Shown here piece by piece: positions 33,621-37,278 of a stretch of 37,278 bases of DNA. The position numbers and the translations under genes were made by a program. Positions within the stretch are counted from its first letter, which is position 1; the number at the start of each line of letters is the position of its first letter. The notes beneath the pieces are model-generated. The model ran no database searches, had not been told where the DNA came from, and saw only the letters and a list, made by a program, of their open reading frames with translations. Origin of the DNA: Parvibaculum sp. (GTDB lineage: Bacteria; Pseudomonadota; Alphaproteobacteria; Parvibaculales; Parvibaculaceae); contig JAHBYM010000012.1 in NCBI GenBank assembly GCA_019635975.1, positions 1-37,278 on the forward strand, read 5' to 3'.

Positions 33621-34256
33621 TCAGTATCCGCGGATCATCTGCATGAAACGGGCTTCCATCCGCGGATCGTCGCGGAAGACGCCGGTGAACTGCGTGGTGA
33701 TGGTGGCGACGTCGGGCTTCTTGATGCCGCGCGTCGTCATGCATTGATGCTTCGCCTCGATCAGGATGGCGACGCCCTGCGGCTGCAGCGCGGCGTTGAT
33801 CGTGTCGGCGATCTGCGCCGTCATGGTTTCCTGCGTCTGCAGGCGGCGGGCGAAGATCTCGATGACGCGGGCGAGCTTGGAAATGCCCACGACCTTCCTG
33901 GTCGGCACATAGGCGATATGCGCGCGGCCGAGAATGGCGACCATGTGGTGCTCGCAATGCGACTCGATGTTGATGTCGCGCAACATCACCATGTCGTTGT
34001 AACCCTCGACTTCCTCGAAGGTGCGGCTCAATTCCTTGAAGGGGTCTTCGTTGTAGCCCTCGAAGAATTCCTCATAGGCGCGCACGACGCGGCCGGGCGT
34101 GTCGATCAGGCCCTCGCGGTCGGGGTTGTCGCCGGCCCATGCGATGAGGGTGCGGACGGCGGCTTCGGCCTCTTCGCGGCTCGGCTTTTCAACGGCAGAC
34201 AGGCGGTCGTCCTCCGTCCGGGCCCGGAGCCCATCAACTACAGCATTCATGTCCAT
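33621..34256 (-). CDS. folE: GTP cyclohydrolase I (folate/pterin biosynthesis)
   Basis: A 211-residue type I GTP cyclohydrolase, the first enzyme of tetrahydrofolate synthesis (GTP to dihydroneopterin triphosphate). Zinc ligands are Cys101 in ESHCEHH, His104 and Cys172 in [10 protein letters not shown]. The substrate region [27 protein letters not shown] is intact, as is the end [25 protein letters not shown]. This is the zinc enzyme (FolE), not the metal-alternative FolE2. Cytoplasmic decamer in known relatives. Start 34256 or the Met two codons later both fit. A terminator follows. Confidence 0.95.
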
Positions 34257-34530: not shown

Positions 34531-34559
34531 TTGCCGGGCAGGATGGGCTCGCTTAATAA
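34531..34559 (+). promoter_or_regulatory. Sigma70-like promoter of the cysS transcript
   Basis: TTGCCG (34531-34536), 17-base spacer, TAATAA (34554-34559). A start near 34566 would give a leader of about 200 bases before cysS, containing the Cys-rich ORF and the hairpins. Confidence 0.6.
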
Positions 34560-34617: not shown

Positions 34618-34704
34618 ATGGTTCGCCTGACGACATGTTGTCGAACTTCGCCGACCACGGGTGGCACGACCACCCGTTGCGCGGCCGGCTGTCCGGCCGC
34701 CTGA
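34618..34704 (+). CDS. Cys-rich leader peptide upstream of cysS
   Basis: A 28-codon ORF starting [11 protein letters not shown] and ending in AAGCPAA before TGA at 34702. Four of its 28 codons are Cys (7, 8, 21, 25), with codons 7-8 in tandem. GGAGA lies nine bases before its ATG. It sits 58 bp upstream of cysS, behind a promoter and among perfect hairpins (34657-34677, 34681-34700, 34705-34724). This is the layout of a ribosome-stalling attenuator sensing charged tRNA-Cys. The alternative pairing of 34681-34686 with 34721-34726 gives mutually exclusive structures. Not a Cys-bearing structural gene as far as I can see. Confidence 0.55.
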
Positions 34705-34726
34705 GGCCCGTCGTCGCACGGGCCGC
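34657..34726 (+). promoter_or_regulatory. Consecutive perfect hairpins, candidate cysS attenuator
   Basis: Stem B: ACGGGTGG (34657-34664) with CCACCCGT (34670-34677). Stem C: GCGGCCGG (34681-34688) with CCGGCCGC (34693-34700). Stem D: GGCCCG (34705-34710) with CGGGCC (34719-34724). GCGGCC of C can instead pair with GGCCGC at 34721-34726, disrupting D. B and C lie within the leader ORF, and D starts directly after its stop codon. There is no T-run, so control may be translational or Rho-based. Confidence 0.5.
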
Positions 34727-34762
34727 ACCCCGCGAAGCCCCGACGACATAAAGGCCTGCCCG

Positions 34763-36166
34763 ATGAACGCCCAACCCAACCGACACAAGCTCGTTCTCTA
34801 CAACACGCTGACGCGCCAGAAGGAAATCTTCGAGCCCGCGGACCCTGCGCGCGTGACGATGTATGTGTGCGGGCCGACGGTCTACAACCACGCCCATATC
34901 GGCAATGCGCGGCCGGCCGTGGTGTTCGACGTGCTGGCGCGGTTGCTCAGGCGGCTCTACCCGCATGTGGTTTATGCGCGCAACATCACCGATATCGAGG
35001 ACAAGATCATCGCCGCCGCGAAAGAGCAGGGCGTCGAGATTTCGGTCGTGACCGAGAAATACGCGCAGATCTATCGCGACGACATGGGCGTGCTCGGCGT
35101 GTTGCGGCCCGACCTCGAGCCGAAAGCGACGGAGAGTGTCGCCGAGATGATCTCGATGATGGAGCGCCTCATCGCCAGCGGCAACGCCTATGCGGCGGAG
35201 GGGCATGTGCTCTTTCACGTACCGAGCTTTGCCGGATACGGGAAGTTGTCGGGGCGGGACCGCGACGACATGATCGCGGGCGCGCGGGTCGAAGTGGCGC
35301 CGTATAAAAAAGACCCGGCCGATTTCGTGCTGTGGAAGCCGAGTACGCCCGACCAGCCCGGCTGGGACAGCCCCTGGGGACGCGGGCGGCCCGGCTGGCA
35401 TATCGAATGCTCGGCGATGATCGAGAAGCATCTCGGCCAGACCATCGACATTCATGGCGGCGGCATCGACCTGCAGTTTCCGCATCACGAGAACGAGCTG
35501 GCGCAATCGACATGCACGCATGGGGCGCCGCTGGCGCGGTTCTGGCTGCATAACGGCTTCGTCAACATGGGCGCCGAGAAGATGTCGAAGTCGCTCGGCA
35601 ATGTGCTGCTGGTGCACGATCTGATCGGCCAGGCGCCCGGCGAGGCGATCCGGCTGGCGCTGTTGAACGCGCATTACCGGCAGCCGCTCGACTGGACGGA
35701 AGAGGGGCTGGCGCAGGCGAAGCGCATGCTCGACCGGCTTTACGGCGCGCTCAAGGGGCTCGCCGACGTCAAATCCGAGCCGACCAACGATGCGGCGCCG
35801 GACGAGTTCATGGCGGCGCTGACCGACGATCTCAACACGCCGAAAGCGCTGGCGGTGCTGTTCGATCTCGCCAAACAGGCCAATACCGCGACCGATCCCG
35901 GCACGCGGGCGCAGCTCAAGGCGGCGCTGATCGGCGCGGGGCGGCTGATCGGCTTGCTCGAAATGACGCCCGAGGCCTGGTTTGCAGGCGCGGGGGCGGC
36001 TTCCCATATCGATGGGGATGAGGTCGAACGGCTGATCGCGGCGCGCAATGCGGCGCGCAAGGCCAAGGATTTCGCCGAGGCCGACCGCATCCGCGGCGCG
36101 CTTGCCGATATGGGCGTGGCGATTGAAGATGGACCGCAAGGCACAAGCTGGAGAGTGGCGGGCTAG
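34763..36166 (+). CDS. cysS: Cysteinyl-tRNA synthetase
   Basis: A 467-residue class I cysteinyl-tRNA synthetase, which charges tRNA-Cys. The HIGH-type motif is HAHIGNA (43-49) and the KMSKS motif is at about 273-277. The zinc/cysteine-binding residues include Cys36 in VCGPTVYN, the Cys in WHIECSAM and the HH in QFPHHENE. The C-terminal helical DALR-like domain follows, ending with [28 protein letters not shown]. Cytoplasmic. ATG 34763 has AAAGG 8 bases upstream. The leader upstream contains a Cys-rich ORF, so it is likely feedback-regulated by charged tRNA-Cys. Directly followed by the IscU-like gene. Confidence 0.96.
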
Positions 36167-36670
36167 ATGCTCAACGAGATCTACAACAAGCGCATTCTCG
36201 AACTTGCGGCGGATATTCCGTTCAGCGAGCGCTTGTCCGCGCCCGACGCCTCGGCGACGGCGGTGTCGAAGCTGTGCGGTTCGAAGGTGACGGTCGATGT
36301 GAAGCTCGACGCTGACGGCCGGGTCGCGGACTACGGCGCGGATGTGAAGGCTTGTGCGCTCGGGCAGGCGTCGTCCTCCATCATGGCGCGGCATGTGATC
36401 GGCGCGAGCGCCGCCGAGCTGCACGAAGTCGGCGCGGCGATGCGGGCGATGCTGAAAGAGGGCGCCGCGCCGCCGCGCGAGATTTTCGGCGGCAAGTGGA
36501 AAGACCTCGAAGTGCTGGAGCCGGTGCGCGACTACAAGGCGCGCCATGCCTCGACGCTATTGGTGTTCGACGCGGTGGAGGAGGCGGTGGAGACCGCGCT
36601 TGCCGCCAAACGGGGGAGTGGGACTGCCGCGCAGACCGGGACCGCCACTAGCACCGGCCCGGCCGCCTGA
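36167..36670 (+). CDS. IscU/NifU_N-like iron-sulfur scaffold family protein with altered third ligand
   Basis: A 167-residue protein of the NifU N-terminal/IscU family, which builds iron-sulfur clusters on three cysteines. Two are present: Cys37 (KLCGSK) and Cys63 (KACALGQASSS). The third position, HCS in IscU, is His127-Ala128-Ser here (ARHAST), so a normal cluster site is incomplete. The last 25 residues are Thr/Ala/Gly-rich. Its ATG follows the cysS stop directly, so it is on the same transcript. A scaffold, transfer or regulatory role is possible, fed by cysteine. Cytoplasmic. Confidence 0.85.
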   Translation: MLNEIYNKRILELAADIPFSERLSAPDASATAVSKLCGSKVTVDVKLDADGRVADYGADVKACALGQASSSIMARHVIGASAAELHEVGAAMRAMLKEGAAPPREIFGGKWKDLEVLEPVRDYKARHASTLLVFDAVEEAVETALAAKRGSGTAAQTGTATSTGPAA

Positions 36671-36717
36671 AGCGCCGGGCCCGGCCGCTCCCGCGTTTCC
36701 GCCCGGGCGGCTTTTTT
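36661..36717 (+). terminator. Terminator-like sequence after the IscU-like gene
   Basis: The GC-rich sequence GCCGCC...CCGGGC on the left can pair with GCCCGGGCGGC (36701-36711) with a bulge, followed directly by a T6 run (36712-36717). This fits an intrinsic terminator of the cysS transcript, though the stem is imperfect. Confidence 0.6.
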
Positions 36718-36813
36718 CCAGACGAATCAATCGGATCGCAGACGTGGCGGTTTCCGCCTCGGTTGTGCGCCCTCCGATTAAAAGCTAACAAGTGCGTGTA
36801 ACTTTGGTTTGTC

Positions 36814-36858
36814 GCGTTTTCGAACCGCAAAAGTGGAGTCCACTTTTGCTGAAAACGC
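36814..36858. repeat. Short nested palindromic repeat
   Basis: GCGTTTTC (36814-36821) and GAAAACGC (36851-36858) enclose GCAAAAGTGGA-g-TCCACTTTTGC (36827-36849), two nested perfect inverted repeats. It resembles short dispersed palindromes common in Rhizobiales-type genomes. It lies just before yidD. Confidence 0.65.
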
Positions 36859-36876
36859 TTCCCGACGTGGTTTCCC

Positions 36877-37194
36877 ATGCGGCGCGACCTCCTTTCGCTC
36901 CCGATGCGCGGCCTGATCCGGTTCTATCAGTGGTTCATTTCGCCGCTGCTGGGGCCCTCCTGCCGCCATCTGCCGACCTGCTCGGACTACACAATGCAGG
37001 CGATGGAGCGGCATGGCGGGTGGCGCGGTTTCTGGATGGGGCTTGCGCGCATCGCGCGGTGCCACCCCTGGGGCAGCCACGGCTTCGACCCGGTGCCGGA
37101 GCGGCTGGAGGACCAGCCCGTCTGGGCGCCGTGGCGATACGGGCGTTGGCGGATGCCGCCGGCGCCGCCGGAATGCACGCACGGAACGCATTGA
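36877..37194 (+). CDS. yidD: Membrane protein insertion efficiency factor YidD
   Basis: A 105-residue YidD-family protein. The signature is complete: LIRFYQWFISPLLGPSCRHLPTCSDYTMQAMERHGGWRGFWMGLARIARCHPWGSHGFDPVPE. Three conserved cysteines are in SCRHLPTCSDY and RCHPW. YidD helps YidC/Sec insert membrane proteins and lies at the inner membrane through an amphipathic helix. The C-terminus is Pro-rich and longer than the core. Start ATG 36877; the SD is weak. thrS follows 10 bp later, so co-transcription is likely. Confidence 0.9.
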   Translation: MRRDLLSLPMRGLIRFYQWFISPLLGPSCRHLPTCSDYTMQAMERHGGWRGFWMGLARIARCHPWGSHGFDPVPERLEDQPVWAPWRYGRWRMPPAPPECTHGTH

Positions 37195-37204
37195 GAGAAA
37201 GACA

Positions 37205-37278
37205 ATGATCAAGCTGAAACTTCCCGACGGTTCCGTTCGTGAACATGAGAAACCGCTCGACGGGCTCGCCTTCGCCGA
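37205..37278 (+). CDS. thrS: Threonyl-tRNA synthetase, N-terminal fragment (runs off the right edge)
   Basis: ATG 37205 with GAGAGAAAGAC upstream opens a frame to the window end. It begins MIKLKLPDGSVREHEKPLDG, the start of the TGS domain of threonyl-tRNA synthetase, which helps bind tRNA. Only 24 residues are visible, so the call rests on this pattern and the context beside yidD. Confidence 0.75.
   Translation, partial: MIKLKLPDGSVREHEKPLDGLAFA

Follow-up and report, generated by a model that had tools for sequence, protein, structure and literature searches.

Known cysteine leader ORFs and the locus in the window

Control of a cysteinyl-tRNA synthetase gene by an upstream Cys-codon ORF has a precedent in the Alphaproteobacteria. 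The uORFC-8-2 element (PMC8632094, 2021) was described from 145 leaders upstream of cysS genes in Rhodobacterales; these have tandem Cys codons, mostly at peptide positions 14-15, and a terminator whose intrinsic stem is accompanied by a U run at the 3' end; it was read as ribosome-mediated attenuation (PMC8632094). The original prediction for the locus analysed here had supposed such control of alphaproteobacterial cysS to be undescribed and was mistaken on that point. The leader in our window (the whole 37,278-nt stretch of Parvibaculum sp. DNA, which makes up all of contig 24 of a draft genome) likewise lies 5' of cysS in an alphaproteobacterium and is an ATG-initiated uORF with tandem Cys codons. 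Its host belongs to the Parvibaculaceae and not to the Rhodobacterales, and its Cys pair is found at codons 7-8 (Cys 3 and 6 in the short forms described below) as opposed to positions 14-15.

Actinobacteria also carry Cys leader ORFs (PMC1262725). In mycobacteria, polycysteine leaderless short ORFs (Canestrari et al. 2020, cited in PMC9031893), so far as the citing account describes them, resemble the window leader in that Cys codons of a leader ORF control downstream genes in response to cysteine, and differ from it in being leaderless. Attenuators of the trp type share with the window leader the use of regulatory codons, a stop-proximal arm with two partners and a comparable peptide size, but their output is an intrinsic terminator whereas the output here is apparently access to the Shine-Dalgarno (SD) sequence. 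Attenuation of aminoacyl-tRNA operons was reportedly treated by Lopatovskaya in 2010, and additional published precedent for a Cys leader is possible.

The window leader runs from an ATG at 34618 to a TGA at 34702-34704, encodes 28 residues with Cys at codons 7, 8, 21 and 25, and is separated from the cysS ATG (34763) by 58 bases. The features of the locus are as follows.

34531..34559, + strand: promoter-like TTGCCG-N17-TAATAA, in a stretch conserved in the genus (relatives' alignment)
34618..34704, + strand: leader ORF, kept in relatives (translation)
34636..34641, + strand: tandem Cys codons 7-8 (TGT TGT), then CGA ACT (clade alignment)
34678..34680, + strand: Cys codon 21 (TGC; TGT in L003) (sequence, translation, alignment)
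34690..34692, + strand: Cys codon 25 (TGT) (sequence, translation)
34750..34754, + strand: cysS SD-like AAAGG, with AAGG retained in most of the clade (sequence)
34763..36166, + strand: cysS, cysteinyl-tRNA synthetase (Pfam PF01406, PF09190, PF23493)

Coordinates and translation agree with the 28-codon ORF that had been predicted 58 bp before cysS, with four Cys codons of which two are tandem, and the synthetase identity was confirmed by a Pfam tRNA-synt_1e match (E 6e-121), DALR_2 and CysS_C also being matched. The proposed sigma70-like promoter stood only in part: its TTGCCG (34531-34536) and TAATAA (34554-34559), 17 bases apart, fall in a stretch conserved among relatives, but a consensus scan found no sigma-70 site near the leader and missed this pair too. 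An Rfam search of the window gave 0 matches, and a further copy of the leader was sought in the same genome and not found. Downstream of cysS (36167-37278), the window holds a gene with a NifU-N domain, yidD and, at its end, the apparent start of thrS.

Conservation of the leader ORF

We gathered cysS upstream regions from the order, where 36 of 40 genomes had a strong cysS match, and further ones from a class-wide set and 80 named genome loci. By automatic count, a Cys-clustered short ORF (CxxC or CC type) was present in 30 of the 35 order leaders, compared with 2.1 ± 1.4 in dinucleotide shuffles; relatives thus clearly retain the ORF and its Cys codons, the outcome on which the original prediction had been staked in advance. 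The same test on the order leaders yielded 0-10 for nine other amino acids (0-4 for tryptophan, histidine, tyrosine and others; 10 for methionine). Other Alphaproteobacteria had a smaller excess (15/80 vs 6.5 expected; 10/39 vs 2.9 for the named ones, mainly Rhodobacterales), and there was no excess in non-alphaproteobacterial cysS leaders (2/33 vs 3.4). Of the ten amino acids Cys thus stood out, and within this sample it did so solely ahead of cysS genes of Alphaproteobacteria.

These counts already contradict the idea that the ORF arose by chance in GC-rich intergenic sequence or is an upstream gene read out of frame, an explanation we regard as extremely improbable. The nearest upstream gene, folE (33621-34256), is transcribed in the opposite direction from a start 361 bases 5' of the leader. 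Artefacts of this type do exist in another alphaproteobacterial group, where MDPxCxICYR 'uORFs' (L122, L126, L138, L199-L201; e.g. MDPKCRICYR) were considered as a further lineage and rejected, as they overlie the apparent end of an upstream CDS out of frame. Such CxxC uORFs are a trap for automatic uORF searches.

Two forms of the leader were distinguished, a long one (TTCCRTS..., 28-33 codons) in the clade of the window and a short one (MTCRTCGPTITTA, MTCRSCGHITITA, MTCRCCRKNTTESPA, MTCHLCCRCRQTSFTRLA) in the rest of the order. The leader is kept order-wide although its peptides are as divergent as TTCCRTS, MTCRTCGPTITTA, MTCRCCRKNTTESPA and MTCHLCCRCRQ. Across the window clade the Cys pair lies within codons 6-9 and varies only by TGT/TGC third-position changes, the CGA-ACT that follows is identical in 15/15 members, and changes in tail length leave the reading frame intact and the stop in place immediately 5' of a segment called A below. 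The gap between the leader stop and cysS is 54-86 bases across relatives. Four members of the window's genus (L017, L018, L019 and L023) are without a Cys-clustered leader 5' of cysS; by their sequences these are apparent losses, and they could serve as natural controls.

Because the signal and the gene match, these data strongly suggest that the sensor is the Cys codons read by the ribosome. A Cys-sensing leader peptide before cysS is well supported by the comparative sequence evidence, and the window element is very probably a functional Cys leader. We also considered a peptide that senses metal or thiol stress through its CxxC or CC cysteines and not tRNA-Cys charging. Metal control by Cys-rich upstream ORFs is known in other bacteria and several leaders do contain CxxC (MTCRTC), but the layout of the cysteines varies freely (CC, CxxC or CxCC, or with additional Cys in the tail) and the gene is constantly cysS; for this reason we favour the codon role over a metal site and hold the latter to be very improbable.

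Alternative RNA structures between the leader and cysS

The structures in and after the leader ORF are listed below.

34657..34677, + strand: hairpin 1, perfect, 8 bp, inside the leader ORF, window subclade only; arms 34657-34664/34670-34677 (sequence, fold)
34681..34700, + strand: hairpin 2, perfect, 8 bp, inside the leader ORF; arms 34681-34688/34693-34700 (sequence, alignment)
34705..34724, + strand: hairpin A:B directly 3' of the stop, GGCCCGT/ACGGGCC, candidate anti-sequestor; perfect arms A, 34705-34711, and B, 34718-34724 (alignment, folds)
34705..34756, + strand: candidate sequestor over the cysS SD region (fold, z -3.2; pair counts; family-wide test)
34732..34749, + strand: complement of the stretch with the Cys codons (34635-34651), closest relatives only (duplex test)

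The three perfect hairpins said to follow or overlap the ORF are all present in the sequence, and hairpin 2 is maintained in L003 by a double change (GCGACCGG/CCGGTCGC), one compensatory change. The predicted arm with two competing partners fared less uniformly. In the window, GCGGCC (34681-34686) is complementary to GGCCGC at both 34695-34700 and 34721-34726, but pairing with the latter is not conserved, the match being broken in L003. The alternatives that do recur in relatives are the hairpin after the stop and a helix of the same segment with the cysS SD region. Hairpin A:B, with hardly any covariation, is present in most of the window clade and is mutually exclusive with the sequestor.

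In the window, the candidate sequestor is composed of GGCC (34705-34708) paired with a GGCC that overlaps the SD (34753-34756), GTCGTCG (34710-34716) paired with CGACGAC (34741-34747), and GGGC (34720-34723) paired with GCCC (34737-34740). In most relatives the interval from the stop to the ATG folds best as a single long hairpin joining the post-stop bases to the SD region. For 17 representatives the median summed pair probability between these two regions was 8.3; for 112 further cysS loci it was 2.5 (Mann-Whitney p 1.3e-5), and the representatives also exceeded shuffles (Fisher p 8e-5). The pairing letters differ by genus (GGCC/GGCC in the window, CCUCUU/AAGAG in L028, GCUCGCG/CGCGAGA in L141). 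Within the window clade, 96% of cells in the outer helices are paired and two pairs are changed on both sides, and none of 500 shuffles reached the covariation score of this small set of 11 sequences, the shuffles leaving relatedness in. A duplex between the Cys codons and the stretch 5' of the SD was also tried as a general switch and rejected: the duplex test gave p 0.003 in the window and was significant only there and in its nearest relatives, not in most relatives.

Output and direction of the proposed control

No intrinsic terminator was found near the leader by the consensus scan of the window, whose stop-to-cysS interval contains no TT, and the longest T run in the clade is 1-2. Since there is no terminator, and since the post-stop segment pairs with the SD region, the target is likely translation initiation. 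The same peptide and alternative hairpins could instead decide premature transcription termination, intrinsic or Rho-dependent, as in the published model of the Rhodobacterales cysS leader (PMC8632094); the common A-B-C order of the Rhodobacterales leaders, with almost invariant GCGGG/CCCGC arms, would fit this, as would the suggestion of Rho for terminator-less actinobacterial Cys leaders (PMC1262725). T-rich stretches also occur in some Parvibaculaceae spacers, L021 and L140 having T-richer ones, and transcription control is possible in these two. For the window element we consider termination unlikely, given that the scan and the T runs speak against it and that it leaves the SD-pairing signal unexplained. 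SD access is the better fit in the window clade.

We accordingly favour, with moderate confidence, a leader-peptide attenuator in which tRNA-Cys charging sets cysS expression, likely through translation initiation and not through an intrinsic terminator. SD access is quite likely the output, and induction of cysS on Cys shortage is somewhat probable. In the proposed scheme, the short ORF with its clustered Cys codons would be translated, and segment A could form either the hairpin with B or the longer structure over the cysS SD. With ample Cys-tRNA, the ribosome would reach the stop and cover A while B pairs downstream; upon its departure the sequestor would shut over the SD and cysS would be low. 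With scarce Cys-tRNA, the ribosome would stall at codons 7-8, leaving A free for B as the RNA emerges, and the A:B hairpin would keep the SD open and cysS high. We infer the stalling, the choice of structure and the direction of the response, and that starvation turns cysS on is what physiology leads us to expect.

Folding with ribosome masks gave a mean SD opening of 4.1 kcal/mol for the terminating mask and 4.2 kcal/mol for locked A:B, the stalled state remaining closed at equilibrium (6.1 kcal/mol); such equilibrium calculations do not discriminate the direction and lean slightly to the opposite sign. Under a coupling of that sign, ribosomes finishing the leader would open the helix between A and the SD, and Cys shortage would lower cysS. 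Masking the post-stop segment indeed opens the SD by ~2 kcal/mol on average relative to the stalled state. The subclade of the window would have a further complication of the switch: its Cys codons are able to base-pair with the sequestor arm, and a ribosome sitting on codons 7-8 would prevent this pairing and so remove a competitor of the sequestor, which would point to the opposite sign. However, the mask calculations are for equilibrium only, lowered expression on starvation would be a positive feedback physiologically unexpected for a synthetase gene, and the gap of 54-86 bases far exceeds the ~12-base limit for reinitiation (PMC4833913). We judge this coupling improbable and take induction on Cys shortage to be the somewhat likelier response.

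Relation to the Rhodobacterales element

For comparison, Rhodobacterales leaders were re-collected and a covariance model was rebuilt from 22 of them. The rebuilt model detected held-out Rhodobacterales (E about 1e-4 to 1e-12), but at E<=10 none of the leader ORF regions from Parvibaculaceae was matched, and no Rfam 15 family matched any leader compared. Because the rebuilt model lacks Parvibaculaceae matches, we regard the window leader as similar to uORFC-8-2 at the sensor and not as a member. The G/C arms that follow the Cys codons come in a similar order (GGCGGGC, AAGCCC), and from this similarity a distant common origin is possible. Unlike uORFC-8-2, the window clade has no terminator U run, and the arms in the window take in the cysS SD. 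In the Rhodobacterales leaders L235-L261 (alignment A2), the uORF stop is followed by a nearly invariant GCGGG with two facing partners, a distal CCCGC with which it pairs and a CCCGC-like sequence overlying the stop codon, an arrangement that suggests uORFC-8-2 to be a three-arm switch.

Whether the Parvibaculaceae cysS leaders form a separate order-wide class, in which a Cys peptide gates SD access and the pairing is rebuilt per genus, is to us an evenly balanced proposal; such a class would be either independent of the Rhodobacterales element or a terminator-less relative of it. If it holds, cysS genes governed by a Cys-codon leader of their own would not be confined to Rhodobacterales; the arrangement would recur in Alphaproteobacteria, its output here being a different one, translation and not termination. 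The locus would then be a compact test case of an attenuator that changes its output stage while its sensor stays, and a natural reporter of tRNA-Cys charging.

Other Cys-rich ORFs and matches

Very Cys-rich short ORFs were seen directly 5' of cysS in L149 (MAQDIKQNKSCKCGCGCACCTCTSCDCCHGCSKDCSCGCCA, -191 to -65) and in L055 (MTHQSCSCKKCDCHGNCGKNCACGCCK, -142 to -58), positions being counted from the cysS match; either may be a leader or a small metal-binding protein. The 41-residue Cys-rich ORF 5' of cysS in L149/L214, considered as another possible lineage, was not found in the sampled order mates. Two Hyphomonas genomes (L061 and L068) have short ORFs ending in Cys runs (MFDVRFALCPACCCCR and MFTVSYRCTCCC) 5' of cysS and are possibly, judging by these sequences, a third alphaproteobacterial lineage with a cysS leader. 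In a Roseovarius genome, positions 429-528 of L078 (minus strand) matched Rfam PYLIS_3 (mttB), a pyrrolysine insertion element, at 44 bits, which probably reflects similarity to an mttB-like coding sequence.
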